A stretch of 39,917 bases of DNA from Palleronia aestuarii. GTDB lineage: Bacteria; Pseudomonadota; Alphaproteobacteria; Rhodobacterales; Rhodobacteraceae. Of this stretch, positions 1,091 to 39,084 are shown piece after piece (position 1 is the first letter of the stretch; the number at the start of each line of letters is the position of its first letter). The notes beneath the pieces were generated by a model. It did no database searches. It saw only the letters and a program-made list of their open reading frames with translations, and was not told where the DNA came from. The stretch lies in NCBI RefSeq assembly GCF_003253995.1, contig NZ_QKZL01000024.1, forward strand, positions 13,138 to 53,054. The letters run 5' to 3'. The translations under genes and the position numbers were made by a program.

Positions 1091-1299
1091 TGGCCTGCCC
1101 CCTAAAAAAGCGGTCCTCTCTGAAGTAGGCTTTTGAGCCAGATGGAGAACGAAAGAATGGGACAGATCGGAGCCGGATCAGGGATCGATACCCCGGCGGA
1201 GCGCACAAGCCGGATGAGATCGTCGCGAAGCTGAGGCAGGTGGACGTGCTGGTATCGCAGGGTTGGTCGGTGGCCGAGGCGGTGCGCTCGATCGGGGGT

Positions 1300-1335
1300 T
1301 CGGCACGAGCCGCCACCGGTTCGAGGCCGTGCCGA
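1300..1335 (+). repeat. Hairpin element, copy 1 (loop-conserved family)
   Basis: Left arm TCGGCACGAGCC, 13-nt loop GCCACCGGTTCGA (1312-1324), right arm GGCCGTGCCGA. The arms pair over 11 bp with one bulged base. It interrupts the IS3 OrfA frame after RSIG. Confidence 0.8.
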
Positions 1336-1368
1336 GCCAGTTCACTTACTACCGTTGGCGCACGGAAC

Positions 1369-1405
1369 GAGCCACGTCCGCCATTGGTCCAAGAACAATG
1401 GCGAG
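1369..1405 (+). repeat. Hairpin element, copy 2 (loop-conserved family)
   Basis: Loop GCCATTGGTCCAA at 1380-1392. The arms are imperfect around the loop, but an alternative perfect pairing CGCCATTG / CAATGGCG (1379-1386, 1396-1403) exists. The left flank CGAGCCACGTCC matches copy 10 (CGAGCCTCGTCC), showing homology beyond the loop. It interrupts IS3 OrfA just before GLKTD. Confidence 0.75.
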
Positions 1406-1815
1406 TGCGGGCTGAAGACCGACTAGGTGAAACGTCTGAAGGAGCTGGAAAAGGAGAATGAGCGGCTGCGAAAGGCCGTCTCCGATCTCACGCTCGAGAA
1501 ACTGATCCTGCGAGAGGCCGCCTCGGGAAACTTCTGAGCCCCGCCCGTCGCCGAGCCTGTGTCGATCATGTCAGGCAGAAGTTCTCCGTTTCGGAGCGCA
1601 TCGCCTGTCGCGTGCTCGGGCAGCATCGGTCTACGCAGCGAAAAATTCCGCACGGGCGGGCCGATGACGATGCGCTGACCGCGGACATCGTTGCGCTCGC
1701 CAGCCAATACGGGCGCTACGGCTACCGTCGGGTCGCTGCCATGCTGCGCGATGCCGGGTGGGCGGTGAACGTGAAGCGGATCGAGCGGATTTGGCGACGG
1801 GACTTCGGAGGATCA

Positions 1816-1840
1816 GGAAAGGCCCCTGTGGGGCGTTTCC
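1816..1840. repeat. Palindromic insertion in IS3 orfB
   Basis: GGAAAGGCCCC - TGT - GGGGCGTTTCC: 11-bp arms with one mismatch and a 3-nt loop. About 40 extra bases separate WRR from LKVPQKQPKKG in the OrfB frame, with GACGG repeated on both sides, possibly a duplication made on insertion. Confidence 0.7.
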
Positions 1841-1973
1841 CCGACGGAGCTGAAAGTTCCCCAGAAGCAACCGAAGAAAGGTCGGCTGTGGTTGAACGAC
1901 GGGTCGAGTATCCGTCTCCGACCGGAGCGGCCGAACCACGTCTGGTCCTACGACTTCGCTGAGAGCTGAACCG

Positions 1974-2011
1974 TCGCCATCGTCGCTCGAACCGATGGCG
2001 CGACGTGGCGA
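1974..2011 (-). repeat. Hairpin element, copy 3 (loop-conserved family)
   Basis: Plus-strand arms TCGCCATCGTCGC and GCGACGTGGCGA pair over 12 bp with one bulge around the loop TCGAACCGATGGC, which is GCCATCGGTTCGA on the minus strand. It lies between SYDF and RMLNIVDE of IS3 OrfB, where it adds a stop and a frameshift. Confidence 0.85.
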
Positions 2012-2405
2012 CCGGAAGGAAGTCCCGGATGCTCAACATCGTCGATGAGTTCACGAGGAAGTGCGTGGCGATCAGGGTCAATCGGAAGCTTAATTCCGCC
2101 GCCGTGATCGACGTCCTGACCGACCTGTTCATCCTTCGCGGCGTGCCCGGCCACGTTCGGTCGGACAACGTCCTATGTCGGGAATTTCTGGCTGCTTAGG
2201 CCAGCAGGTCATGGGGCGTCCGGCTTCCCGGACACCTTGGAAAGGTTGCCCAGACGGGCTCTGCCGTCAAGAAATGATCTCTTCCATAGCAAACACAGGG
2301 TACGCTAGCCGGCGGCTCTCACCGTCCTCAATACGAGATCCCAAATTCCAAGCAGAAGGCCCGAACATTATCTACGAGGTCAGCGAGCTGCCCCCACGGC
2401 TCTTG

Positions 2406-3644
2406 TCAGAGAGAGGTCCTTCCGCCCGGGCTCACCCCCTCGAAGAAGGGGCGATAGGGCTTGCCGTGATTGACCACGGCGTGAACGGTGCGTGCCATCT
2501 TTACCGCGATCGCGGTGTAGGCCTTGCGGCGTAGATGAGCGTTGTGTCGATCCTTCGAGATGTAGCGCTCGAACTTGTCTCGGAAGCTGTTGGTCCGCTT
2601 GAGCACGGCCGTCTGACCGGCCATCCAGAGCGTGCGTCGTAGCCGGGCATTGCCATACTTCGAGATCCGGCTCTGCCCTCGGAACATGCCGGACTGGACC
2701 GTCGCAAGGTCCATGCCGCAGAACTTCAGGAACTGGCGGTGATGCCGGAACCGACGAAGGTCGCCGGCTTCGGCTAGGATTGTCATGGCGTTTATCGGGC
2801 CGATGCCGGGAATGGTCGTCAGAAGCTGATAGTCGGGCAGATCGGAGAGCAGCTCGACCGCACGGGCTTCGATCTCATTGCGCTGGCGGACGAGACTTCT
2901 GCCTTCGGCGAGGACCAGGCGGAACATGCGCACAGCGTCGGAATCCGGTTCGCCGGGCAAACCAACCGAGCCAACAGCCGTTGTGTAAATATCTGAAAGC
3001 AGGCGCTCTTTGGAGACTTTGCGGCCGACGACCACCACGCATCGGCAATAAACGCGTCTCGGCTCATGGCGGCGATCATGTGCGGCGACGGGTACTTCTC
3101 CAGAAACGCCAGAAACCAGTCGGTTCGCGAGCTTCGATGAAACCGTTCGGCCTCGGGGAAGTAGAGCGGAAGGTAATGAGTCAGGATGCAGTGCCAGAGC
3201 TCGATCTTCGAACGTGAGACGATCTCGTGCGTCTTCGACAGCTCCTGAATGTCCACCGTTCCGACCGCCAGGGGATCATGAAAGAACTGGACGGCGCCGA
3301 TCTCCAGCATGTGCAGGATGACCTGGGCGTCCTTCGGATCATTCTTGTCCCAACTGTTGTGCAAGGCCTCGCGAGTTCGGGCGAGACCGACAGAGGAGAC
3401 AAGCTTCAGGTCGAACCCGGCCTGGCCGAGATGGTGCGCCAGCGGCCGATGATAGTTGCCGTCAAGGCGGTGCCTTGACCCTCGAAGCCGATCCGAACCG
3501 GCAGGTCGTAGCTGACGAGCGCCTCAGACACGCGTTGGAATCTTCCAGCGTGTTCATGATCGTCATGCGACGGCGACGCTTCTTGCTGGGAACCCCGATC
3601 AGAACCTCATGTCGATGCTTGGAAATGTCGATGGCGACCAGCAA
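2406..3644 (-). pseudogene. IS110-family transposase, multiply frameshifted
   Basis: Reading through three frames gives a nearly full IS110 protein: LLVAIDISKHRHEVLIGVP (first Asp of the DEDD RuvC-like domain), then VSEALVSYDLPVRIGFE, then HNSWDKNDPKDAQVILHMLE, then the C-terminal Transposase_20 domain with LTTIPGIGPINAMTILAEAG and QSRISKYGNARLRRTLWMAG. The frame breaks at about 3550 (one base lost in LEDFQRV), at the palindrome 3461-3479, and near 3039. A TTG at 3644 is the only likely start seen. Inactive as read. Confidence 0.82.
3461..3479. repeat. Perfect palindrome inserted in IS110 transposase
   Basis: GTCAAGGC - GGT - GCCTTGAC, 8-bp perfect arms around GGT. It replaces the expected codons between GFE and GNYHRPLAHHL, a net gain of about 14 bases that shifts the frame. 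Same GGT loop as the insertion at 39721-39743. Confidence 0.7.
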
Positions 3645-3815
3645 GGTCGGTGCGATAGAATGAGTGGCGGTAATAGCGTGCTGCGCACCCTCAGCGGTGT
3701 GGTTCAGAAAAACCACTGTTGAGACCTGAGACCCGGTCATGGCCACTTGCTGCGCTATCTGGGGGCTGCGCGCGTGGCTAATACCTCTCGGCAGGGCTTC
3801 TTCCGGACGTGCTAT

Positions 3816-4185: not shown

Positions 4186-4433
4186 GGATCAAGAACGCCT
4201 CCGTCAAACGCATCCACTATGACAGGCACGATCAACTGCGCACCCACCTTGACGACTTCAAGGCACTATAACTTCACACGCAGGCTCGAGACGCTCGCCA
4301 GCCATGCTCCTCGGACCGACGGCGGATCATGGCTGGCCCTCACGCCCTATGAATACATCTCCAAGACTTGGACCTTAGACCCGGATCGGTTCATCCTCGA
4401 TCCGTTCTGTTAAATGCCGGGACTGACCACCTA
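4186..4433 (+). pseudogene. IS481-family transposase, C-terminal remnant
   Basis: KNASVKRIHYDRHDQLRTHLDDF continues the fragment that ended at 1090 and belongs to the C-terminal integrase core of IS481. After a frameshift it reads LTPYEYISKTWTLDPDRFILDP, a stop where Gln is usual, then MPGLTT and TAA at 4433, the normal end of the protein. A hairpin insertion (4297-4337) separates the two blocks. Left end given as the first base after the IS3 element. Confidence 0.8.
4297..4337 (-). repeat. Hairpin element, copy 4 (loop-conserved family)
   Basis: Arms GCCAGCCATGCTCC (4297-4310) and GGATCATGGCTGGC (4324-4337) pair at 13 of 14 positions around TCGGACCGACGGC (minus strand GCCGTCGGTCCGA). It sits in the IS481 remnant between LETL and LTPYEY. 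The longest stem of the family, with a sequence unlike the other copies. Confidence 0.85.
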
Positions 4434-9650: not shown

Positions 9651-9667
9651 ACTCACCGGCCGCGCGC

Positions 9668-9698
9668 CAGTGGGCAAGAACCAATGGCGCCCTCACTG
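9668..9698 (-). repeat. Hairpin element, copy 5 (loop-conserved family)
   Basis: Plus-strand arms CAGTGGGC and GCCCTCACTG pair over 8 bp with a 2-nt bulge around AAGAACCAATGGC (minus strand GCCATTGGTTCTT). It lies at the orfA/orfB junction of the IS3 remnant. The loop deviates at its last three positions. Confidence 0.65.
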
Positions 9699-9699
9699 A

Positions 9700-9956
9700 C
9701 TCGCCTTTGGCTGAACGATCACGTTCTACCACGAACTGGCCGATCTTGGCGTGCAGCTTCTCGATCTCGCCCTCTTTCTCGTCCGCCTCCGCCTTGCCCG
9801 ACATTCCCGCGAGTTCCTGCCGCTTCCAGGTGTTGATCAGAGCTGATGCACGCCGTGCTTCGCTACCAGCTCGGCAACCGTCATCTCACCACGGATCGCC
9901 TCGAGCGCCACCTTCGCCTCGAACTCGTCGCAGTAATCCTTTCGTTTGCCAGCCAC
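9700..9956 (-). pseudogene. IS3-family OrfA remnant
   Basis: A GTG at 9956 opens [35 protein letters not shown] (written here in short), the helix-turn-helix of OrfA. After one frameshift follow NTWKRQELAGMSGKAEADEK and EIEKLHAKIGQFVVERD, the coiled coil. The sequence at about 10000-10020 (GGATGCCCGAGTTCCGGGGA) is probably the right end of the element. Confidence 0.75.
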
Positions 9957-22437: not shown

Positions 22438-23416
22438 CGAGAAACTCGGCCGCATTCGCGCCGGCAATTACCGGCAGGGCGACTTCATCATCGCCGATGC
22501 CAAGGACGGCGACATGGGTCCGTCCCTGCAGGCCACCGGTCCGCACCGTGCCAAGGACGGGACCACGTCGAGGTTCCGCACCCGGTCGGAGTTCCTCGAC
22601 AATATCCAGGCCATCGTTGAGCAGGATGTCGTCGATATCATGCTGACCTCGGTGTCCAATCTCGAGGCATTGAACAAGCGCAATGTCTTCGAGGGCAGCA
22701 GGGTCAAACCGGCGATCCGCGCCAACGACACCACCGACATCTGGGTTTTCCGGGGCGCGACCTATGCCCGCCAACCGTCGCGGCCGTTCCGCACGGCAGA
22801 TGTGAGCGTCGCGAAAGCTGCCGGAGCGGATCTCGGACTGTATTCGATCACGTTCAACAACGATCTCGATCGCGATTATGAATCCCTGCTCGATTTCGCC
22901 GCGTTCCGTAAGGAGGCGCGGGCCAACGACTTCGACTACTTCCTCGAAGTCTTCAATCCGAACGCCTCGAACGATCTTGCGGCAGAGGATATTCCCGGCT
23001 TCGTCAACGACGCGCTCATGCGCTCGATCGCGGGGCTGGGCGAAAGCGAGCGTCCCGAATTCCTGAAGATTCCCTATAACGGACCGAAGGCGCTCGAGGA
23101 GCTGGCATCGTACGATCCGTCGGTGATCGTCGGCATCCTCGGCGGTGGTGCGGGCACCACGCGCGATTGCCTCGAGCTTATCTCCCAGATCGAGCGCTAC
23201 GGTGCGCGGCTCGCCCTGTTCGGGCGCAAGATCAATCTCGCCGACGATCCGCTCACCATAGTCAAGATGATGCGGGCCGTGGCCGATGGCGCCCTCACCT
23301 CCGAACAGGCGGTGCGCGAGTATCACGGCAAGCTGAGCGATGCCGGCATCACGCCCACCCGGCCCCTCGAAGACGATCTCCAGATCACCGAGGCGGTGCT
23401 CAAGGAGGCGGCATGA
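22424..23416 (+). CDS. Class I aldolase-like TIM-barrel protein
   Basis: 330 residues, conserved in look but not a textbook enzyme. It opens YRLDEKLGRIRAGNYRQGDF, then IIADAKDGDMGPS, DIMLTSVSNLEAL, and a central FLKIPYNGPKALEEL. The Lys in this last block (Lys215) sits where FbaB/LacD-type aldolases carry the Schiff-base lysine on a barrel strand, followed by VIVGILGGGAGTTRDCLELI, a phosphate-binding-like Gly loop. I infer an aldolase for a phosphorylated sugar made by the kinase encoded next. ATG at 22424 follows GGAAGG and overlaps the ATPase gene, so it is firmly in the operon. Alternative: a non-catalytic barrel. Confidence 0.65.
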   Translation: MYRLDEKLGRIRAGNYRQGDFIIADAKDGDMGPSLQATGPHRAKDGTTSRFRTRSEFLDNIQAIVEQDVVDIMLTSVSNLEALNKRNVFEGSRVKPAIRANDTTDIWVFRGATYARQPSRPFRTADVSVAKAAGADLGLYSITFNNDLDRDYESLLDFAAFRKEARANDFDYFLEVFNPNASNDLAAEDIPGFVNDALMRSIAGLGESERPEFLKIPYNGPKALEELASYDPSVIVGILGGGAGTTRDCLELISQIERYGARLALFGRKINLADDPLTIVKMMRAVADGALTSEQAVREYHGKLSDAGITPTRPLEDDLQITEAVLKEAA

Positions 23417-37660: not shown

Positions 37661-37959
37661 GTTCGCGAGAGCGGAATGATCCCCTTCCCAGTCAGGCCTT
37701 GTCGATCATGCGTGAAGTTCAGTGGCACGGGGCTTCGGCGCTGCGATCCGGAAAACGGGGGTTGATCTTCTCTTAACTCGGTTAAGGCCGCTGTTAAGGT
37801 CTTCGGACTTGGAAAGAGCGCTGGATTACGGGCTACGGTGAGCCTGCTCGGTTTGTCTGAACGGCGTCCGGGCTTCTGCCAAGTGGATATCCGCTCTGGT
37901 TACGCCGCCGCCGGGAGTGGCGATGGCTGGTTTGGACAAGCCCGATCGGGCGTCTGCCC
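37661..37959. other. Intergenic stretch before the right-hand IS graveyard
   Basis: No gene seen. CTTAAC-TCG-GTTAAG (near 37775-37789) is a 6-bp perfect repeat that may act as operator or weak terminator. The region after ~37840 already reads like IS3 end sequence. Confidence 0.45.
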
Positions 37960-38111
37960 GCCAAGCGATGAATGGGGCCGGGTGCCTTTGTAGAAGTGCA
38001 GGTAGCGGCTGATGGAGGCGCGAGCCTCGGAAACGCTGGCATAGGCGCGCAGGTAGACTTCTTCGTATCTGACCGTCCGCCAGAGCCGCTCGACGAAGAC
38101 GTTGTCGCGCC

Positions 38112-38129
38112 GTCGGCATATATGCCGAC
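38112..38129. repeat. Perfect 18-bp palindrome inserted in IS3 orfB
   Basis: GTCGGCATATATGCCGAC. It replaces the codons between MDGKG and RDN of the OrfB frame and shifts it. Confidence 0.75.
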
Positions 38130-38162
38130 CCCTTGCCGTCCATGCTGATGGCGACCTCGATC

Positions 38163-38195
38163 GCCGCCGGCCTCGAACCGATGGCGGCCTACGGC
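38163..38195 (-). repeat. Hairpin element, copy 6 (loop-conserved family)
   Basis: Arms GCCGCCGGCC / GGCCTACGGC (8 of 10 pair) around TCGAACCGATGGC (minus strand GCCATCGGTTCGA, identical to copies 3, 7 and 8). It lies between VLKGE and AISMDGKG of IS3 OrfB. Confidence 0.85.
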
Positions 38196-38394
38196 TCGCC
38201 CTTGAGCACCCGCGTGAAGTCTACGCTGGTGAACTGCGACCCCTGATCCGTATTGAAGATCTCCGGCTTGCCATGGCGGCGGAGCGCTTCTTCGAGAGCC
38301 TCGATGCGAGACAGTCCGCGGATAGCGTGATCGACAGCCGCCAGTTCAGGACCTTGCGGCTGAACCAGTCGATGACGGCGGCAAGATAGAGTGA

Positions 38395-38427
38395 GGCATT
38401 GGTCGCCATCGGTTCGAGACCGATGCC
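38395..38427 (+). repeat. Hairpin element, copy 7 (loop-conserved family)
   Basis: Arms GGCATTGGTC / GACCGATGCC, 10 bp with one G-T wobble, around GCCATCGGTTCGA (38405-38417). It lies between YVPMA and LAAVIDWF of IS3 OrfB, opposite in orientation to copy 6. Confidence 0.88.
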
Positions 38428-38551
38428 GAACGCCCCCGGCCATGGGGACGTAGGTGATGTCCATCGCCCGGACCTGGTTGGGCCGGGTCACGGCCCGGCC
38501 CCTCAGCAGATAGGAATAGATCCTGTGCCCCGGCGCCGGCTTCGACGGCGA

Positions 38552-38583
38552 GCCTCGTCCGCCATCGGTTCGAGGGCGATGGC
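38552..38583 (+). repeat. Hairpin element, copy 8 (loop-conserved family)
   Basis: Arms GCCTCGTCC / GGGCGATGGC with one bulge and one wobble around GCCATCGGTTCGA (38561-38573); the alternative inner pairing GCCATCG / CGATGGC is perfect. It lies after IYRRP in IS3 OrfB. Its flanks match copy 2. Confidence 0.83.
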
Positions 38584-38743
38584 AATCGGACGGCGGTAGA
38601 TCGCCGCGACCCCCATCCGCTTCAGCAGCGTCGAGACGTGGCATCGGCCGACCTCGTGGCCCTCGTCGTTCAACAAGGCTTTCAGCATTCGGCTACCCGC
38701 GAACGGATACTCCATGTGCAGTTCACAGGTCCGGCGCAATGAA

Positions 38744-38773
38744 CCATGTCGCGCCATTGGTCCGAGCGTGGCC
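38744..38773 (+). repeat. Hairpin element, copy 9 (loop-conserved family)
   Basis: Loop GCCATTGGTCCGA (38753-38765) with poorly paired arms (CCATGTCGC / GCGTGG). Left flank and loop are nearly identical to copy 3. It sits at the junction between the IS3 OrfB remnant and the serine-recombinase remnant. Confidence 0.65.
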
Positions 38774-38774
38774 G

Positions 38775-39084
38775 TCAGCTGACTTGCGATCGTGCGGAAC
38801 CGGCGCGGGACCGGGGTCTCGCCGTACGCGGGACGACCCGCGCATAGAAAACGGCCGAGATCGGTGTGGCTCTCGGCCGCAATGCCGTCTGCTCTGCTGT
38901 CGTTGGGGGTGAGCACGATCCTGTCTATGAGGACGGCGATGTGCTCGTGGGCCTGGTAGACCAGGTCCGGATCGCCGAGACACGTCTCGAGTTCAGCGAC
39001 CGACCGGGCGTAGGCCGCGGCTGGATCGGGTGGAGGCATGGCGCGCTCGGTCACCGCCTGTTCGGCCTCGGCCTTGTTGCACAT
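38775..39084 (-). pseudogene. Serine recombinase, C-terminal remnant
   Basis: RSVAELETCLGDPDLVYQAHEH followed by IAVLIDRIVLTPNDSRADGIAAESHTDLGRFL (by region) matches the C-terminal coiled-coil end of large serine recombinases, where LIDRIVLTP…ELHGDLA is typical. The catalytic resolvase domain is absent. The reading then runs into the IS3 orfB fragment through hairpin copy 9. On its other side it is cut by the left end of an IS5 element at 39070. Confidence 0.65.

Follow-up and report, generated by a model that had tools for sequence, protein, structure and literature searches.

A family of ~41-nucleotide palindromic hairpins that replace a few host bases in transposase and phage genes of Rhodobacteraceae

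Results

Hairpin insertions in broken transposase genes

The window analyzed here, a 39,917-nucleotide stretch of a Palleronia aestuarii contig, contains two broken IS3-type transposase genes that carry copies 1–3 and copies 6–9 of a small palindromic hairpin, along with copies 4 and 5 elsewhere (Table 1). An IS110-type element appears to split the first of these two remnants. For the second, another species of the genus encodes an open 276-aa relative without inserts (L084). The transposase remnant hosting copy 4 is presumably IS481-like, based on its motif. One host base fewer was replaced at copy 7 than at the other copies, and copy 9 has a complete counterpart at G000:C46:995-1038. A preliminary description of this DNA had placed the hairpins as insertions in dead transposase genes, and each of the eight full copies has indeed a host-gene homologue without the insert. 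It had also set three copies apart as less well paired: those at 1366 and 38547 are in fact regular copies whose left arm lacks one base, and the one at 38744 is cut off on its right.

Table 1 Hairpin copies and associated features in the window.
Feature	Position	Strand	Details
Broken IS3-type transposase with copies 1–3	1140..2168	+	HTH_21 (7.6e-12) in 1612-1959; flanks homologous to L109, L137, and others
Copy 1	1297..1338	+	IS3-type orfA remnant; covariance model (CM) E 7.2e-7; L301, L125, and L092 have 7 nt in place of 42
Copy 2	1366..1407	+	Same orfA remnant as copy 1; CM E 3.1e-10; empty homologues L093, L255, L137
Copy 3	1972..2013	-	IS3-type orfB remnant; CM E 6.1e-7; empty homologues L109, L218, L137
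IS110-type element	2409-3700		Transposase_20 (E 4.2e-27) in 2409-3038
Copy 4	4296..4338	-	Transposase remnant; CM E 5.9e-9; empty homologues L097, L139, L037
Copy 5	9661..9705	-	Left arm two bases longer; CM E 1.1e-7; empty homologues L088, L240
Broken IS3-type transposase with copies 6–9	37950..38870	-	Pieces: rve (1.5e-8), HTH_21 (5.9e-8)
Copy 6	38158..38200	-	IS3-type orfB remnant; CM E 1.9e-14; empty homologue L084
Copy 7	38390..38432	+	Antisense to orfB remnant of copy 6; CM E 3.6e-18; empty homologue L084
Copy 8	38547..38588	+	Same remnant as copies 6–7; CM E 1.3e-10; empty homologues L084, L096
Copy 9	38739..38768	+	Right side cut off; CM match to model positions 13-31 only, E 0.0024

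Detection of the copies and covariation of their arms

The exact loop GCCAYYGGTYCGA is present in six copies (1312+, 1987-, 38173-, 38405+, 38561+, and 38753+), with one mismatch at 1380+ and 4311- and two mismatches at 9676-. Four loops had been described as identical, which is correct, and the loop itself as invariant, which it is not (GCCAYYGGTYCRA). Loop near-matches alone are weak evidence, since 27 matches with ≤2 mismatches were found in the window, while 100 shuffles gave 14.3 on average and up to 25; one single-mismatch match, at 22532+, was rejected as a copy of the element. When the window was searched, with filters off, using a covariance model built from 19 copies (alignment A2), the nine copies were the nine best matches, eight of them with E-values from 3.6e-18 to 7.2e-7 and the ninth (38750) at 0.0024, while the next match reached 0.065. 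Across the source genome (4.54 Mb, 77 contigs), the loop pattern matched 49 times, compared to a single match for the reversed-pattern control. Both results indicate that the nine hairpins first proposed from the sequence alone are real.

Arm pairing was then evaluated for 39 distinct copies from the source genome chosen by loop alone. Their own arms paired on average at 6.7 of 10 ungapped positions, compared to 5.0 (maximum 5.8) when arms were re-paired 1000 times and 3.8 in random genomic 41-mers. Sixteen of the 39 reached ≥8 paired positions, and at least four (in L001, L002, L009, and L032) had no hairpin by eye, i.e., were chance matches. In alignment A2 (19 rows), 93.9% of cells were paired and 9 of 12 pairs changed on both sides, a level reached by 0 of 500 shuffles, and slid versions of the alignment paired at 25–45%; because good pairing was among the reasons for choosing the A2 rows, the loop-chosen set provides the fairer and independent test. 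The stems are thus more complementary than shuffled controls by both measures. Beyond this covariation, the preliminary description had argued that a fixed loop between complementary arms implies that structure, rather than arm sequence, is made or selected. However, palindrome arms can also be kept complementary through correction by template switching, so that arm covariation alone proves no such selection.

Architecture and variation of the element

The element is a palindromic hairpin of ~41 nt, RY-GA-[10-nt arm]-GCCAYYGGTYCRA-[10-nt arm]-GA-RY, with a 13-nt loop, a stem of 10 bp plus an outer 2 bp, and imperfect 14-nt terminal inverted repeats. The consensus of 132 non-redundant copies is approximately RY-GAG-CCATTGTSC-GCCAYYGGTYCRA-GNNCAATGGC-GA-RY, and element length in the window ranges from 40 to 43 nt (CM match, 42–45 nt). 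Arm sequence varies from copy to copy, yet the arms covary. The outer dinucleotides are also variable and mostly complementary: among 124 copies with a GA..GA core, GC/GC was found in 46, AT/AT in 25, GT/AC in 19, TC/GG in 10, AC/GT in 7, and other combinations in 17. GA opposes GA in 69 of the 113 copies of the strict-pattern set, which includes viral contigs. One broken IS is present in two copies (G000 C46:430-1022 and C24:51310-51902, 97% identity) that carry the same inserts and differ in some arm bases, i.e., arms keep changing after insertion.

The loop opens with a sequence nearly repeating the left arm, and the right arm can therefore pair with either the left arm or the loop. DNA folding favored the arm–arm hairpin in three of four sequences tried and the loop–right-arm hairpin in one, and RNA folding favored arm–arm pairing in both sequences tried. 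Six or seven of seven Watson–Crick pairs could be formed between loop and right arm in 103 of 136 non-redundant copies, with a mean of 5.64 compared to 5.37 for shuffled loops (maximum 5.49 of 500), a small excess which may be explained by the relatedness of the copies. In the fetched loci (1.49 Mb), all 95 left arms GAGCCATTGTSC were associated with a loop, and 3 of 82 right arms lacked a loop in that orientation, each next to a reverse-oriented loop. Since none of the left arms lacked the loop, no larger or parent transposon sharing the ends of the element was seen in these 1.49 Mb.

The consensus element has a stop codon in none of its six frames, and 45 of 113 copies are similarly stop-free, compared to 25% of random same-composition hairpins and 7.6% of consensus shuffles. 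Given that one in four random hairpins is stop-free, six-frame openness alone proves no selection. A second class, comprising 29 copies picked by eye as intergenic-looking, seems to be located between genes; among these 29, at least three of the four outer positions are paired in 24, and 16 are next to a CCCGGGATATTT-like, terminator-type sequence, compared to 1 of the 84 others. At several second-class copies (L200, L202, L212, L225, L258, L262, L267, and others), the adjoining reverse strand carries a common CCCGGGATATTT(TGGCC)-like sequence, itself apparently a terminator-type repeat that recurs in the bacterial family.

Footprint of insertion and target site

An empty homologue was available for 59 of the 130 non-redundant copies, where the element replaced five host bases in 39 cases, four in 19, and three in one; at least 58 of these comparisons involve diverged homologues (flank identity, 66–88%), so that small alignment shifts are possible. 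The other 71 copies had no empty homologue among the fetched loci. Comparison with relatives lacking the insert, along the lines originally suggested, showed replacement of host bases, and target duplication was found neither in the 59 non-redundant filled/empty comparisons nor in a 99.5%-identical pair described below. The net gain was mostly 36 or 37 nt (36 in 56 and 37 in 30 of 88 copies, redundant ones included). With flanks ≥90% identical, 7 of 228 queries gave a total of eight matches; for six of the seven, identity was 90–94%, and one near-identical filled/empty pair only was found among all 228.

The target site is weakly specified, with an oriented motif RNR-[N4-5]-GSS. In the 5-nt class (38 empty sites), 95% had a purine (R) at -3 and 89% at -1, and 87% had G at +1, followed by C or G; in the 4-nt class (19 empty sites), the corresponding shares were 73%, 95%, and 89%. 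The same base bias was observed across 132 filled sites, fading within three to four bases. Because this motif is asymmetric, the element is oriented relative to its target. Within the window, seven host bases lie opposite the CM match at seven of the eight full copies and six at 38390, i.e., five and four bases, respectively, not counting one flanking base per side. This loss remains at five (four once) while the element varies from 40 to 43 nt, which argues that insertion, rather than reading frame, determines the count. Selection on reading frame as the cause of the +36 gain is similarly weakened by the frequent +37 gain. An inverted copy of the host flank was also considered as a source of the arms and rejected, since the arms match a consensus common to the element family that bears no relation to the flanking DNA; by eye, the right arm pairs with the right host flank at some sites but not in general.

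One insertion, in Paracoccus liaowanqingii 2251, is recent. The istA gene of plasmid unnamed2 (L335) is filled, with an annotated 522-aa open frame and an adjoining istB, while the istA gene of plasmid unnamed1 (L340) is empty and itself shortened downstream by another change. Flanks of this pair, which is not among the 59 compared copies, are 99.5% identical over 200 bases, with CCACC exchanged for a 41-mer without duplication.

Distribution across taxa

Covariance-model searches of Rhodobacterales genomes, also proposed in the preliminary description, recovered the element at 1e-7 in 133 of 390 genomes sampled from the order; all 133 belong to its own family, although this sample may hold few other families. 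Among 394 genomes sampled from the family, 125 had matches at the same threshold. Within the genus, matches at E ≤ 0.01 were found in 13 of 14 genomes, including 61 in the source genome and a maximum of 74 in G002, with none in G008. The class sample yielded matches in 5 of 385 genomes, two of which belong to other families and were element-like in alignment (G817, with three equal matches, and G881, an assembly with 10% contamination). A stricter pattern retrieved at least 114 stretches, nearly all from Rhodobacteraceae or Rhodobacterales among the 80 listed, and the few rows from outside Rhodobacterales are MAGs that may be mis-binned. This pattern was also found in 11 viral contigs. A 43-nt query matched 25 of 72,556 curated plasmids, all from genera of Rhodobacterales, and 0 of 50,697 curated phages. 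Overall, the element lives across many genera of Rhodobacteraceae in the broad (GTDB) sense. A stretch of G004, a genome of the genus (L108, L118), was identical to L217 of Palleronia marisminoris CECT 7066 over 3037 of 3037 bases.

This distribution bears on whether the hairpins are mobile at all. Covarying arms are what local template switching would yield, and the hairpins might accordingly be local quasi-palindromes, or else assembly errors. However, a common loop and arm consensus is found in many genera, in complete plasmid records, and in near-complete chromosomes, which refutes this explanation for the family as a whole and leaves it with next to no credibility.

Host genes and alternative origins

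Hosts were surveyed by scanning the longest stop-to-stop frame over the hairpin for 111 of the 113 strict-pattern copies (110 frames, two copies sharing one), two frames <90 aa being left out. If none was doubly matched, at least 26 of the 110 frames matched transposases (rve 14, Transposase_mut 6, IS66 3, DDE_Tnp_1_5 2, DDE_3 1), a lower bound since an antisense shadow or a mere fragment often supplies the longest frame. GpA terminase was matched by two frames, and many matched nothing. Single matches included the exonuclease VII large subunit, peptidase M16, ABC and AI-2E transporters, and a tail tape measure protein, where the insert may lie inside or outside the matched domain. The predicted viral contig L296 carries at least two copies (~2120 and ~3472), one that reads into 'LDE|AYP' of a terminase resembling GpA and another within a short adjacent frame. 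A copy from G003 (L046) has flanks similar to those of the second L296 copy.

Copies in transposases and phage terminases, some of them apparently near catalytic motifs, could suggest a host defence system that marks or inactivates mobile genes by placing a palindrome at conserved, often catalytic, positions. In our reading of the sites, these inserts appear to be near 'LID' in IS5, at 'LDE|AYP' in GpA, and a few residues before 'DKAKVE' in IstA. We nevertheless consider a defence origin very unlikely: the second class seems intergenic, next to terminator-like sequence, several inserted transposase genes are still open, and any neutral insertion would be expected to persist in dead genes.

Open inserted genes raise another possibility, namely that the insert is spliced from the mRNA or skipped by the ribosome as a bypassing hairpin, leaving a functional host gene. 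The element does form a stable RNA hairpin (-21 kcal/mol, z -4.6), and open IstA, IS5-type, and IS256-type genes carry it. Yet its removal could not bring back the four or five lost bases and would be unneeded for copies that are in frame without stops, while copies occur in both orientations and gave no Rfam match. Processing at the RNA level is thus extremely improbable.

Multi-copy IS with the insert were found in other genomes as 18 loci in 7 groups, some with broken frames (e.g., L319/L320); in two of these groups, the paired loci have almost nothing in common around the compared hairpin. At the IS5 site 'LIDS|T', which is filled in diverged lineages, filled copies are interspersed with empty ones on a tree: its 14 filled and 13 empty rows required 6 changes, of which at least 4 were forced by well-supported branches. 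Shuffled trees had a mean of 9.2 changes, and 13 of 500 had as few as 6, i.e., filled copies are clustered, and recombination between IS copies could explain part of this shared pattern. Taken further, the element may have invaded each IS or phage family on one or a few occasions, most of its spread then being due to homologous recombination and host IS transposition, with little mobility of its own now. This would account for related IS copies having inserts at the same sites, for duplicated IS copies having common inserts (G000 C24/C46; G009), and for the GGC-type arm common to the usual IS5-site copies. It is unlikely as the main route, however, given the 130 non-redundant sites in different genes, the P. 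liaowanqingii pair, and the multiple forced changes at a single IS5 site. One of the 14 filled rows, L323 (G059), has another element type, with TC/GG ends and a CCGGTGAAGC arm, at the IS5 codon where the common type is found.

Comparison with known small elements and candidate mechanism

The element resembles Rickettsia palindromic elements (RPEs) and REPs in habit and is not a member of either by the tests made. Wolbachia palindromic elements are palindromic and repeated, are found in genes and between them, and sometimes leave the reading frame open. RPEs similarly occur within and between genes with some host frames left open, and measure 105–146 bp (PMC2229807). Insertion of a repeated palindrome into genes, sometimes with an open frame, is thus shared with both, as the preliminary description had proposed, but the likeness it drew does not extend to the size of RPEs (~41 nt here). 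The element also differs from RPEs in replacing four to five host bases at a target motif, in its loop signature, and in being found in another bacterial family. RPE-like in-frame fusion is seen in the open frames of IstA (L335) and IS5-type (L145), IS256-type (L177, 423 aa), and GpA (L189, 695 aa) genes, but the loss is four bases at 19 of 59 sites (a 41-mer then adds a net +37), and the host genes in the window are broken.

REPs are high-copy palindromes of 20–40 bp in GTAG and CGTC super-families, and those of the CGTC type, which predominate in Alphaproteobacteria, have an unpaired tag, a stem of 8–9 bp, a loop of 4–5 nt, and no known transposase (PMC3733652). Compared to these, the element has no unpaired GTAG or CGTC tag (its ends being RY-GA / GA-RY), a 13-nt loop, and a stem of 10 + 2 bp, and its insertion removes host bases. 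Movement by a Y1 (IS200/IS605-type) transposase, as for REPs moved by RAYTs, would fit a small high-copy palindrome found in both orientations, and G002, the genome with most copies in the genus, contains seven Y1 matches with element copies at two of these seven loci. Y1_Tnp (RAYT) genes were, however, found in none of the other 13 of 14 genomes of the genus, including the source genome (61 copies at E 0.01), which excludes Y1/RAYT as the mover across most of the genus. Considering also the missing tag, the longer loop, and the lost target bases, a REP/RAYT system is a highly unlikely explanation.

MITEs duplicate their target. The element shares with bacterial MITEs (Correia/NEMIS, RUP, and those of Coxiella) terminal inverted repeats and a non-autonomous nature, but host bases are lost at its sites (four to five in 58 of 59) instead of being duplicated. 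Byps of Magnusiomyces mitochondria are tiny mobile bypassing hairpins inside genes; the likeness ends with the loss of host bases observed here, along with no sign of ribosome skipping. Rfam searches returned 0 matches at the gathering score for the window and 7 loci, and just three weak hits (E 0.82 to 3) for window positions 37900-38900. No description of the element was found in a literature search that included few subscription papers, so that an earlier name is possible; the preliminary description likewise knew of no described family with such a loop. We could also not match its insertion mode, a swap for four or five host letters, to any known small mobile element.

Taken together, the nine hairpins probably represent a non-autonomous mobile palindromic element of ~41 nt that replaces three to five (nearly always four to five) host bases at an oriented site and would be moved in trans by an enzyme. 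Its miniature and recurrent nature, with covarying arms and both orientations, had been recognized from the outset. In the mechanism we favor, a trans-acting enzyme would bind the hairpin ends, cut the target with a 4–5 bp stagger, and join the element in such a way that the bases between the cuts are lost rather than duplicated. Copies would then be carried along whenever the host IS, phage, or plasmid moves, and arm complementarity would be kept by template-switch self-correction, by an enzyme recognizing the folded form, or by both. The element may move or be copied as a folded strand, as hypothesized in the preliminary description. More tentatively, and with some doubt on our side, this could be a new mode of DNA integration, in which a Rhodobacteraceae enzyme swaps a free or single-stranded 41-nt hairpin for the 4–5 bp between staggered cuts at RNR-[N4-5]-GSS; the element would then be among the smallest in bacteria, spreading without duplication, a gene of its own, or (in its consensus) stops in six frames.

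Clean insertions are scarce, and the way in which RPEs, CGTC REPs, and other small palindromic repeats integrate and multiply has therefore stayed largely open. The many filled/empty pairs of this family have a fixed footprint, and one pair is recent and comes from a named strain, which makes the question testable at the bench; the family also shows a route for a net insertion of 36 or 37 nt into transposase and phage genes of many genera. Annotators of Rhodobacteraceae genomes can expect to meet transposases with a 12-residue insert resembling EPLSAIGPRTMAS, or with its other frames. In the open inserted IS5-type gene L145, 325 codons were counted from stop to stop, compared to 313 in several empty relatives.
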